Source: Sphingomonas sp. LY54 (GTDB taxonomy: Bacteria; Pseudomonadota; Alphaproteobacteria; Sphingomonadales; Sphingomonadaceae). Taken from it: 64,000 nucleotides of DNA. The DNA lies in assembly GCF_035594035.1 (NCBI RefSeq), contig NZ_CP141588.1:2634501-2698500 (forward strand), read 5' to 3'. Positions 58,219-60,690 of this stretch are shown one piece after another; within the stretch, counting starts at the first letter, position 1, and each line of letters opens with the position of its first letter. The position numbers were made by a program, and so were the translations under genes. The notes beneath the pieces are model-generated. The model worked only from the letters and a program-made list of their open reading frames with translations. It was not told the origin of the DNA and did no database searches.

Positions 58219-58743
58219 GTGAGAATGAGATGTTTGCGTATCCTGTCGCTGGCCGGCCTGGTCGCCGTTGCCGGCTGCGTGCCCCGGGCCGAGCCGCCGC
58301 CACCGCCCCAGCCCCAGCCGCGCCCGGCCCAGCCGGTGGCGCCGCCGCCGGCCGCGGTGGACTGGAGCCTGCTGCCGCTGACGCCCGGCGGCTGGGTCTA
58401 CAGCAATCAGGGCGCGAACTCGCAGGCGCTGTTCGGCCCCGCCAACAGCGAAGCGCATTTCGCGGTCCGCTGCGATCGCGCCAGCCGTCAGGTCGTCCTG
58501 TCCCGCGCGGGCGAGGGCAATGCCCTGACGATCCGGACGTCGTTCGGCGCGCGCGCATTCCCCGCTGTCGCCCAGCGCGCGCCGCTGCCCACGGTTGCGG
58601 CAAGCCTTCCCGCGGACGATCGATTCCTCGATTCGATGGCGTTCAGCCGCGGCCGGTTCACGGTCGAAACGCCGGGCGCGCCGATGCTGGTGATTCCGGC
58701 CTGGCCCGAGCCGGCGCGAGTCATCGAGGACTGCCGCGGCTGA
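58219..58743 (+). CDS. Two-cysteine lipoprotein, family copy 1
   Basis: 174 residues from a GTG (GGGAGAG 7 nt upstream). Lipoprotein signal RILSLAGLVAVAGC, a Pro-rich spacer (PPPPPQPQPRPAQPVAPPPA), then GWVYSNQGANSQALFGPANSEAHFAVRCDRASRQVVLSRAG...DDRFLDSMAFSRGRFTVETPGAPMLVIPAWPEPARVIEDCRG. Its plan (A/V-x-R-C-D/E early, Cys at the C terminus) recurs in the genes at 59097 and 60169, so the three look like diverged paralogs. Function unknown; likely outer-membrane anchored. Confidence 0.72.
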   Translation: MRMRCLRILSLAGLVAVAGCVPRAEPPPPPQPQPRPAQPVAPPPAAVDWSLLPLTPGGWVYSNQGANSQALFGPANSEAHFAVRCDRASRQVVLSRAGEGNALTIRTSFGARAFPAVAQRAPLPTVAASLPADDRFLDSMAFSRGRFTVETPGAPMLVIPAWPEPARVIEDCRG

Positions 58744-58749
58744 GCCAAT

Positions 58750-58773
58750 AAAAAAGCCGGCGAAGGGGCCGGC
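58750..58773 (-). terminator. Intrinsic terminator for leftward transcription
   Basis: On the minus strand GCCGGC-CCCTTC-GCCGGC (58756-58773) is followed by TTTTTTATT, a textbook hairpin plus U-tract. On the plus strand no T-run follows, so it cannot serve the lipoprotein gene ending at 58743. It implies a leftward transcript coming from the 58780-59040 region, where no convincing leftward protein gene exists. Confidence 0.6.
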
Positions 58774-58879
58774 GCGAAGCATGGAATCCTACTCTGAAAT
58801 GAGTTGAGATCAAGACTTGATCGGAGATTCGTCCCGAATCATAGTCGTCCTGCCAACAACAGCGAAAGGAGGTGATCCG

Positions 58880-58936
58880 ATGTCTCATGGTTCAGCAGAG
58901 GGGTCGGTCCAGTACGTTCGGGAGATGAAGGCTTGA
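58880..58936 (+). CDS. Possible 18-residue peptide behind a perfect Shine-Dalgarno
   Basis: ATG at 58880 follows AAAGGAGGTGATCC with 7 nt between GGAGG and the ATG, optimal spacing with complementarity over the whole 16S tail. It encodes MSHGSAEGSVQYVREMKA and its stop lies inside the GAAGGC/GCCTTC hairpin. Codon third positions are only about half G/C, unlike the genes around it, so it may be a leader peptide, a chance frame opposite an RNA gene, or a recent small gene. Confidence 0.35.
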   Translation: MSHGSAEGSVQYVREMKA

Positions 58937-59096
58937 GCCTTCTTTAGGTCTCCCGGGCTGGAAACTTCCGGCCGCTGACCATGTTCGGAGGGTCGTCGCG
59001 CTGCGGTGCGGCGGCCCTTCAACGCATTCAATCTTTGTCTTTTCGGAAATGTTGATCGTCATGGGCACCAGCAGCGGCCAGCCGCGTTTGACGACG

Positions 59097-59612
59097 ATGC
59101 GAAGCCTTCTTCTCGCAGGCGTGATGGCTCTGGCCGGCTGTGGCGACCAGTCGCGACCGGTGGGCGAAGCGCGCGCGGCAGAGCCGCCGCCTGCCAAGCT
59201 GAAGGCCAGCGAGCCGCCGCTGAGCGAGGGGAAATGGCGCCGCCGCGAGATGGCGAGCGGCGATACCTTGCTGTTCGGGGTGGACCGCGACCGGCCCGTG
59301 GCCGCGATACGGTGCGACCAGCATGCCGAGAAACTGCTCATCGAACGCATGACCGAGGCGCCCGCCGCGGGCATCGAGACGATGAAGGTCACCGCCGACG
59401 GCCGCACGCGGCGCCTGCCGGTCGTATGGGACGGCGCGAGCCTCCCCATCGCCAGCGCCGCCGTCGACCTGGGCGACCGGCTGATCGACAGCCTCAACCG
59501 ACCGAGCGGCCGTATCGAGATCCTGCTTGGGCGCGAGCCGCCGCTGGCGCTGCCGATGGACCGGCAGATCGGCGTGCTGATCGAGGAATGCCGCCGCGCC
59601 CCGATGAGCTGA
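59097..59612 (+). CDS. Two-cysteine lipoprotein, family copy 2
   Basis: 171 residues from the ATG at 59097, chosen so that the signal MRSLLLAGVMALAGC has normal length; ATGs at 59049 and 59061 are in frame upstream. The mature part has GKWRRREMASGDTLLFGVDRDRPVAAIRCDQHAEKLLIERM...GDRLIDSLNRPSGRIEILLGREPPLALPMDRQIGVLIEECRRAPMS. The IRCD and late EEC positions match copies 1 and 3. Function unknown. Confidence 0.68.
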   Translation: MRSLLLAGVMALAGCGDQSRPVGEARAAEPPPAKLKASEPPLSEGKWRRREMASGDTLLFGVDRDRPVAAIRCDQHAEKLLIERMTEAPAAGIETMKVTADGRTRRLPVVWDGASLPIASAAVDLGDRLIDSLNRPSGRIEILLGREPPLALPMDRQIGVLIEECRRAPMS

Positions 59613-60168: not shown

Positions 60169-60690
60169 ATGACTGACAGCCGATCAAGCCTTGTAGCCGC
60201 GTTGCTGCTCCTTGCAGCCTGCGGGCCCGCCGCCAACGACACCAATGTATCCGGAGCAGTGCAGCCCCCCGAGCCGTCCGGCGCGCCTGCTCCGGCGGCC
60301 CCGGCCGAGCCGAAGGCGGGCTGGGAGGGCACCGGCGACGCGCAAGGCGCGAGCCTGCGCCTGGTCGGCGCCGACGGCCGGACGATGATGAGCGTTCGCT
60401 GCGAGAGCGACCCTGCGCGGCTAACCGTGTCCGTCCCGAGCTTCACGCCGATCGGAAGCGAGGATCGCTTCGCCTTCGGTGTCGGCGACGAGCCGGTGAC
60501 GCTGGTTGCCGATCCGACCCGCCAGCAGGCGGGCGGGGTGACCGCCGAGGGGCAGGTTCCGGACGGCTTTGCCGATCTGCTGGCCCGTGCGCGGACGATG
60601 AGCGCGCTCTACGGCACGCAGCGCGTCGGCCCGGAACCGATACCGGCCGACCGCCTCGAGGCGTTCGCCCGGGGATGCGTCAAGCGCTGA
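60169..60690 (+). CDS. Two-cysteine lipoprotein, family copy 3
   Basis: 173 residues. Signal SSLVAALLLLAAC (lipobox), a Pro/Ala spacer, then AGWEGTGDAQGASLRLVGADGRTMMSVRCESDPARLTVSVPSFTPIGSEDRFAFGVGDEPVTLVADPTRQQAGGVTAEG...LEAFARGCVKR. The VRCE and late GC positions correspond to those of copies 1 and 2, though overall similarity is low. No Shine-Dalgarno is seen before the ATG, consistent with a leaderless transcript. Function unknown. Confidence 0.72.
   Translation: MTDSRSSLVAALLLLAACGPAANDTNVSGAVQPPEPSGAPAPAAPAEPKAGWEGTGDAQGASLRLVGADGRTMMSVRCESDPARLTVSVPSFTPIGSEDRFAFGVGDEPVTLVADPTRQQAGGVTAEGQVPDGFADLLARARTMSALYGTQRVGPEPIPADRLEAFARGCVKR

Follow-up and report, generated by a model that had tools for sequence, protein, structure and literature searches.

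The block at positions 58744-59048 of the window (the whole 64,000-nt stretch analysed, C1:2634501-2698500, part of a 3.28 Mb single-contig alphaproteobacterial genome) looks, from its sequence, like an autonomous small RNA gene with a putative promoter, a closing helix and a terminator-type hairpin. We propose that it belongs to a widespread alphaproteobacterial family homologous to Caulobacter CC2171 and that it is gated by ribosome binding. The gating mechanism is one that we infer, and we give the reading as a whole a probability of about one half. CC2171, met by name only in the literature consulted, thus becomes a family spread across the class, whose hallmarks are a complement of the entire 16S rRNA tail and an open reading frame (ORF) that is conserved with little regard to its peptide.

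The RNA is placed at 58851-59020 on the forward strand as a divergent homologue of Rfam CC2171, on the basis of an RF01867 match, a match to a covariance model built here (R1) and DNA matches, with an estimated 5′ end. The block is flanked by two lipoprotein-like ORFs (58219-58743 and 59049-59612), and its base composition is unlike that of its neighbours, as an earlier note on this DNA had remarked (GC 0.51-0.59 versus 0.69-0.79 on both flanks, in 150-base windows). The three GANTC sites described in that note are present (58784, 58826 and 58836); the block is also structured as claimed, with six inverted repeats of at least 7 nt rather than five. Three adjacent ORFs (58219-58743, 59049-59612 and 60169-60690) encode 173-187 amino acids in a similar layout with a common lipoprotein-like start and are possibly tandem paralogues. 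Among seven neighbouring genes, Pfam identified only a glutathione S-transferase and DUF2721, the lipoprotein-like ORFs having no Pfam family, and a tRNA/tmRNA search of the window returned none.

A complement of the entire 16S rRNA 3′ tail

The most distinctive feature is GAAAGGAGGTGATCC at 58864-58878 on the forward strand, an exact 15-nt complement of the 16S rRNA 3′ tail (a hyper-Shine-Dalgarno). A 14-nt complement had been claimed earlier; the match to the full tail is real, and its length is 15 nt. The reference 3′ end, GGCUGGAUCACCUCCUUUCU, comes from an S. meliloti oligonucleotide in the portion of PMC6943124 available to us and from 42 rDNA 3′ ends of the class; a search of the available sequence of this genome gave no 16S 3′ end. 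Within the 3.28 Mb genome, AAAGGAGGTGATCC at 58865-58878 is the sole copy with at most one mismatch. By chance, a tail match with at most two mismatches is expected 0.16 times in the window, and at least one was found in 13 of 100 shuffles. The 15-mer is followed by a single G and then by ATG at 58880. Its GGAGG lies 7 nt from the ATG, which is ordinary Shine-Dalgarno (SD) spacing, so the additional pairing covers the spacer.

A search of 289 genomes of the class counted 87 exact copies of the 15-mer, spread over 78 genomes, and none of the reversed 15-mer. Forty-one occurrences fall inside R1 matches and 46 outside, 42 of the latter being the antisense of 16S 3′ ends. The remaining four (L220, L223, L231 and L243) precede a start codon, and L223 and L243 are likely family members missed by R1. 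All 45 exact 15-mers outside rDNA precede a start codon, 1 nt away in 44 cases and 0 nt in one, in a search that, unlike the patterns used to gather copies (see below), was independent of the start codon. Seventeen of 58 R1 matches lack the exact 15-mer, and those inspected keep 13-14 of the 15 positions. The duplex with the tail has a predicted energy of −31.5 kcal/mol for type A, the kind found in the window, −35.2 kcal/mol for the common non-A form (both defined below), in which the AG of the spacer also pairs, and −27.9 kcal/mol for a second copy in the same genome. The corresponding values for 50 long ORFs in the window, whose starts were assigned mechanically, are −9.2 (median) and −16.2 kcal/mol (best). 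The earlier suggestion of an RNA that should interact with ribosomes is supported, as are the full tail complement and the short ORF directly behind it.

Such long pairing could also act against initiation. In this alternative, the 15-bp duplex leaves only 1 nt before the start, forming a non-initiating complex, and the RNA damps or stores initiation capacity as a trap for 30S subunits. The complement runs through GAUCC, beyond the needs of initiation, its duplex energy (−31.5 to −35.2 kcal/mol) is far from the median of the 50 ORFs, and 14-15 of the 15 positions are kept in 17 of 20 distant loci, all of which a trap would account for. A trap, however, could do without an ORF, whereas here the stop and the length are conserved, and a high RNA copy number would be required; we regard this alternative as unlikely. 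Small RNAs with anti-SD loops are known in Alphaproteobacteria, and a non-coding base-pairing RNA could use its SD-like stretch as a sponge for sRNAs with such (CCUCC) loops. This is decidedly improbable, as it leaves both the conservation of the ORF and the match to the whole 16S tail unexplained.

Openness of the hyper-Shine-Dalgarno was considered as support for ribosome capture and rejected: the mean unpaired probability in 139 copies is 0.43, versus 0.40 in controls in which the rest of the sequence was shuffled. Two matches to AAAGGAGGTGATCCGATG were seen on viral contigs, one with an ORF of 3 codons (L033) and one whose ORF does not start MSH (L032).

A reading frame kept while its peptide changes

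Immediately behind the tail match, 1 nt after the 15-mer, lies the short ORF of 18 residues that had been described earlier (MSHGSAEGSVQYVREMKA, 58880-58936, forward strand). The loop of a small hairpin within the RNA, with arms 58927-58933 and 58936-58942, holds its TGA stop (58934-58936). The stop had been assigned to a terminator-like hairpin; its place in a hairpin loop stands, but the terminator-type hairpin is a separate one, at 58987-59020.

For comparison, 184 distinct copies were gathered among the matches listed, by DNA similarity or with search patterns that themselves include the start codon and codon 2; in these copies the start is therefore no independent evidence. Copies of the window's kind (MSHG...) are called type A, and all others non-A. 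ORF lengths were taken from the 180 copies with at least 200 nt downstream, the helix arms (see below) from 180 with 240 nt, and neighbouring genes (from mechanical gene calls) and openness from 139 copies each. The copies share descent, and their counts should not be read as independent events. An in-frame stop is first reached after 14-36 codons in 175 of 180 copies (77/78 type A and 98/102 non-A) and never earlier, the five exceptions being ORFs of 56-59 codons. The other two frames meet a stop before codon 14 in 22 and 9 of 78 type A copies and in 48 and 30 of 102 non-A copies, and the rest scatter. Of 81 type A copies, 75 have an ORF of exactly 18 codons, and the stop at this place differs among the 67 distinct 18-codon ORFs (TAA 38, TGA 19, TAG 10). 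Twenty of 20 further loci picked by hand (19 from R1 matches and L214 from RF01867) have ORFs of 14-35 codons, and six more have 25-34.

The encoded peptide behaves differently. In type A codons 7-18, entropy by codon position is 1.01, 1.05 and 0.69, the third position being the least variable, and pN/pS is 1.53 (30 disjoint pairs) as against 0.58 and 0.59 in the shifted frames. In non-A copies pN/pS is 0.78 versus 0.94 and 0.81 in the shifted frames (16 pairs), which is compatible with weak peptide constraint. MSH is invariant in the 67 distinct type A ORFs, and codons 2-4 are fixed at their wobble positions also, as a constraint on the RNA would give. An ORF that persists as its peptide drifts freely suggests that what matters is ribosome binding itself and not the peptide; judged by these patterns, selection seems to keep the start, the stop, the length and RNA features rather than amino acids.

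Copies of the MSS types (L200, L201, L209 and L214) carry a GGAGCARCCT-like stretch near the end of the ORF. It is retained at the RNA level although its reading frame differs between copies (L201 and L209 against L200 and L214), which points to an RNA motif. At six loci (L119, L152, L165, L035, L071 and L231) the 15-mer, with one mismatch in L035, stands before ORFs of 56-59 codons that look exported, with a signal-peptide-like start and a Cys and Ser-rich tail; two of the loci, L119 and L152, belong to Azospirillum.

These data bear on a second alternative, in which the locus simply encodes a micropeptide behind a ribosome-binding site of maximal strength, the product being a fast-evolving small protein whose mRNA is stabilised by the RNA structure. 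The retention of the ORF (175/180, plus the further loci) and the invariant MSH agree with it, and the same motif precedes the six exported-looking ORFs, so it can serve ordinary translation. The absence of purifying selection on the type A peptide, with codon position 3 varying least, the fixation of codons 2-4 at wobble positions too and the frame-independent conservation of GGAGCARCCT argue against it, and we consider it rather unlikely.

A long-range helix that involves the start of the ORF

Codons 3-5 of the ORF contain the 5′ arm of a predicted closing helix (CATGGTT, 58886-58892), whose 3′ arm (GACCATG, 58977-58983, assigned by pair changes in an alignment and an arm-swap test) lies downstream on the same, forward strand. 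Between them is an inner stem-loop (58919-58955; inverted repeats and RNAalifold within the genus), in which the sub-hairpin 58927-58942 holds the stop codon in its loop. A terminator-type GC hairpin (58987-59020; pair changes and fold) ends the RNA. The U tract behind it is weak, and a consensus scanner did not accept it as a terminator.

An exact 6-nt Watson-Crick complement of codons 3-4 (offset 6) is found downstream in 128 of 180 copies. Control arms taken from copies of another kind have a complement in 7.3 of 180 on average, with 14 as the largest of 200 draws, and other, non-overlapping offsets in the same copies give 2-15 complements. Several kinds of arm each come with their own complement (CATGGT 74/77, CATTGT 38/53, CATTGC 6/7, CATCGC 3/3 and CATGAA 1/1), indicating that the closing helix covaries between the main kinds. 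Nineteen of 28 distinct arms have no exact complement at that place, including the AGTGA arms of the MSS types (nine of 28 have any). The MSS and MSN kinds mostly lack an exact helix complement there, and in some of them the helix appears, by eye, one base out of register.

In a 55-row alignment (A2), changes on both sides are seen in five of six closing-helix pairs and in all eight counted pairs of the terminator-type hairpin, and the covariation score was reached by none of 500 shuffles; the rows were selected with the aid of the 3′ arm motif, so the pair counts lean towards the helix. Within the genus RNAalifold predicted 55 pairs, 14 of which show two-sided changes in at least one copy. 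The closing helix is absent from the minimum-energy fold of the window copy. A longest-run test of the helix that tolerates G-U pairs was uninformative, shuffled arms doing equally well, and exact complements of swapped arms were used instead. Weighing structural covariation against codon conservation, as had been suggested earlier, gives a closing helix that covaries between the main kinds and a peptide that is hardly kept (pN/pS 1.53 and 0.78).

Homology to CC2171 and taxonomic spread

At gathering scores Rfam finds no family in the window, and to this extent the element is, as first described, without a named RNA family. At a permissive threshold, however, RF01867 (CC2171) matches 58857-59017 with 50.1 bits against a cut-off of 75. 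The match spans model positions 1-159 with E-values of 1.8e-9 in 601 bases and 2.4e-9 for the genome, and is therefore full-length and beyond chance. Because its score lies below the gathering cut-off, we file the RNA as a homologue of CC2171 and not as a member. A known family that explained the element was to count against it; such a family exists, but we found no function stated for CC2171, so it does not explain the element. A second copy in the same genome (C1:2709675-2709865, L064), about 11 kb past the window, is a closer relative of CC2171 at 70.9 bits, also below 75, and a third RF01867 match in this genome is weak (25.4 bits). In a sample of the class, RF01867 matches 31 of 142 genomes at E 0.01, and five of these exceed the cut-off. 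Of 14 named controls two match, Caulobacter vibrioides and Deinobacterium chartae, and one of the two exceeds the cut-off, presumably Caulobacter, with Deinobacterium chartae presumably matching by chance.

R1 was built from 46 copies, including that of the window, and its counts contain these training rows; the window copy (58861-59020, 72.6 bits) is one of them and not independent. R1 detects the RNA in 54 of the 59 family genomes and in 56 of the 289 class genomes (the latter at E 0.001). It was not found in the other five family genomes, in 39 genomes from the order's other families or, at E 0.001, in 233 of the 289 class genomes; its role is thus dispensable for many. At least two copies are present in 16 of the 59 family genomes, and one (G036) has three R1 matches. 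By DNA similarity the block matches 51 of 98 genomes, its own included, and 11 of the rows that belong to other genera retain a match only at query positions 119-165 (58862-58908), with 94-100% identity. Conservation in related genomes, the search proposed in the earlier note, is accordingly established by both routes, and its absence is excluded.

Among the matches listed, loci include Sphingomonas, Brevundimonas, Phenylobacterium, Bosea, Methylobacterium, Microvirga, Azospirillum and Roseomonas, and copies of the same sub-type come from Sphingomonas, Novosphingobium, Erythrobacter and kin. A 200-genome sample of the phylum, taken from listing order as 51 class and 149 non-class genomes, gave 32 R1 matches, all inside the class. 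Two of the matches listed that have the motif and a short ORF (L078 and L142) are on metagenome-assembled contigs titled Gemmatimonadetes and Nitrospinota. Either these contigs were binned wrongly or the family has genuine members beyond the class, so restriction to the class is not certain.

Upstream region and neighbouring genes

The putative promoter (TTGATC, 17 nt, CATAGT; 58817-58845, forward strand) was assigned by its position and by comparing upstream regions by eye; a consensus scanner reported no promoter in the block. A palindrome, CAAGACTTG, overlaps the −35 box at 58811-58819 and is a candidate operator, given the conservation of CAAGNCTTG. The latter occurs within 90 nt upstream in 26/26 same-genus copies, where it overlaps the putative −35 box, in 22/55 other type A copies and in 0/103 non-A copies, with shuffle means of 0.03-0.15 (the shuffles keep single-base content only). 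Two GANTC (CcrM-type) sites 10 bp apart (58826-58830 and 58836-58840) lie in the putative promoter. Each of the 26 same-genus copies has a GANTC some 29 nt ahead of the 15-mer, and 23 have a further one some 39 nt ahead; the shuffle mean for any GANTC is 7.6 of 26. Outside the genus these sites are less enriched (36/55 other type A copies with a shuffle mean of 15; 46/103 non-A with a shuffle mean of 28).

Just upstream of the RNA gene is a terminator-like hairpin on the minus strand (58756-58773). A comparable A-run and stem are found upstream in seven of 26 same-genus copies, and an antisense transcript ending there is possible. A non-coding stretch around GAAGCATGGAATC (58772-58791), upstream of the promoter, is exact in ten of 26 same-genus copies, with variants in others.

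The arrangement of short ORF, hairpins and a same-strand gene at 59049 had earlier been likened to an attenuator, that is, a leader of the downstream lipoprotein-like gene. This layout did not survive comparison. The next downstream gene is on the same strand in only 66 of 139 loci (33/68 type A and 33/71 others) and is not conserved, the largest homologous group comprising nine of 139; moreover, most of type A codons 7-18 vary and there are no conserved regulatory codons. Because downstream genes are unconserved and lie on either strand equally, we consider an attenuator very improbable. The context fits an independent gene with its own putative promoter and terminator, as far as these can be read from sequence. 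On the upstream side, 45 of 139 loci share a homologous neighbour, and the 40 of these that are listed are all type A.

A possible ribosome-dependent switch

The small RNA gene gated by ribosome binding can be given a more specific form, which we offer tentatively. Here an ancient alphaproteobacterial RNA would capture 30S subunits through the full 16S tail, and the start of translation on a content-free micro-ORF would decide how it folds; in this way the RNA would report on, or buffer, the pool of free 30S subunits whose tail is intact. In the main reading, a captured subunit would cover the start and codons 3-5 and open the closing helix. The micro-ORF would let ribosomes exit at its stop, in most cases after 18-26 codons and ahead of the 3′ arm. 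Where ribosomes are absent, blocked or without an intact tail, the closing helix would form and the RNA would switch state. It would thus have two states, ribosome-bound and closed, and the signal would be initiation with a short run of translation, not the peptide; the RNA would then read out, or buffer, the supply of 30S subunits that are free and competent. Against the main reading stand the unexceptional openness of the 15-mer, the absence of the closing helix from the minimum-energy fold of the window copy, the many distinct arms that lack an exact complement, the possible weak peptide constraint in non-A copies, the five longer ORFs and the patchy occurrence of the RNA. In sphingomonads, methylation of the promoter GANTC sites might in addition set the timing of type A copies. 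Should ribosome engagement prove to be the function, Caulobacter would offer a natural, genetically simple system for the sensing of free ribosomes, and one in which the effect of an over-long SD can be asked in vivo.

Comparison with known systems

CC2171 is said to originate with the Caulobacter sRNAs of Landt et al. in 2008. The window RNA resembles it in its 5′ end (cGAAAGGAGGUGAUCC..UGUCUCAU), the long-range closing helix and the 3′ hairpin, and differs in that both copies of the genome (50.1 and 70.9 bits) score under the cut-off of 75. Rfam types CC2171 as an sRNA gene. In the excerpts of open literature seen, CC2171 is found by name only, with no described function, and nothing describes a tail match or an ORF of the family. 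As far as the portions consulted go, Rfam 15 lists CC2171 among families with improved structure (PMC11701678), and Mesorhizobium huakuii MH_s33 is annotated as CC2171, with start and end columns that we take to be from RNA-seq (PMC5596092) and count in favour of expression in relatives. In Caulobacter, two formerly predicted ncRNAs, not named in the text seen, are translated and most ncRNAs are not (Schrader et al., 2014; PMC4117421). The RNA is not mentioned in the parts consulted of PMC5082802, PMC11005374, PMC5988900, PMC10117765 and PMC7566282. Two candidates for the same RNA were set aside: the text seen on Caulobacter CcnA gave no sign of the tail motif (PMC8959179), and none was found among the CrfA/Sis sRNAs in the part of PMC12559287 seen.

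Leader-peptide attenuators of the trpL type share a short ORF and hairpins with this RNA and differ by a conserved downstream gene, which is lacking here. The mRNAs of hok-type type I toxins fold back 5′ to 3′ and have a long-range helix near the start and a micro-ORF. The likeness lies in that helix and the micro-ORF, and the difference in the peptides, which here, by inspection, are not like hydrophobic membrane peptides. Dual-function sRNAs (Spot 42, SgrS and rnTrpL) are likewise small structured transcripts with a short ORF, and the SgrS peptide has a function. The peptides of Spot 42 and rnTrpL are also functional, according to the sections seen of PMC10117765 (for Spot 42, the title of a reference cited there), whereas the peptide here is not conserved (pN/pS 1.53 and 0.78). 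The extended SD motifs of S. aureus, as described in the part of PMC13009471 available to us, are similar in that SD pairing is lengthened towards the start codon; there two base pairs are added on ordinary mRNA, whereas here the complement reaches 15 nt. Unlike those motifs, the 15-mer outside rDNA stands, in the 289 genomes, only before start codons of the kind described here.
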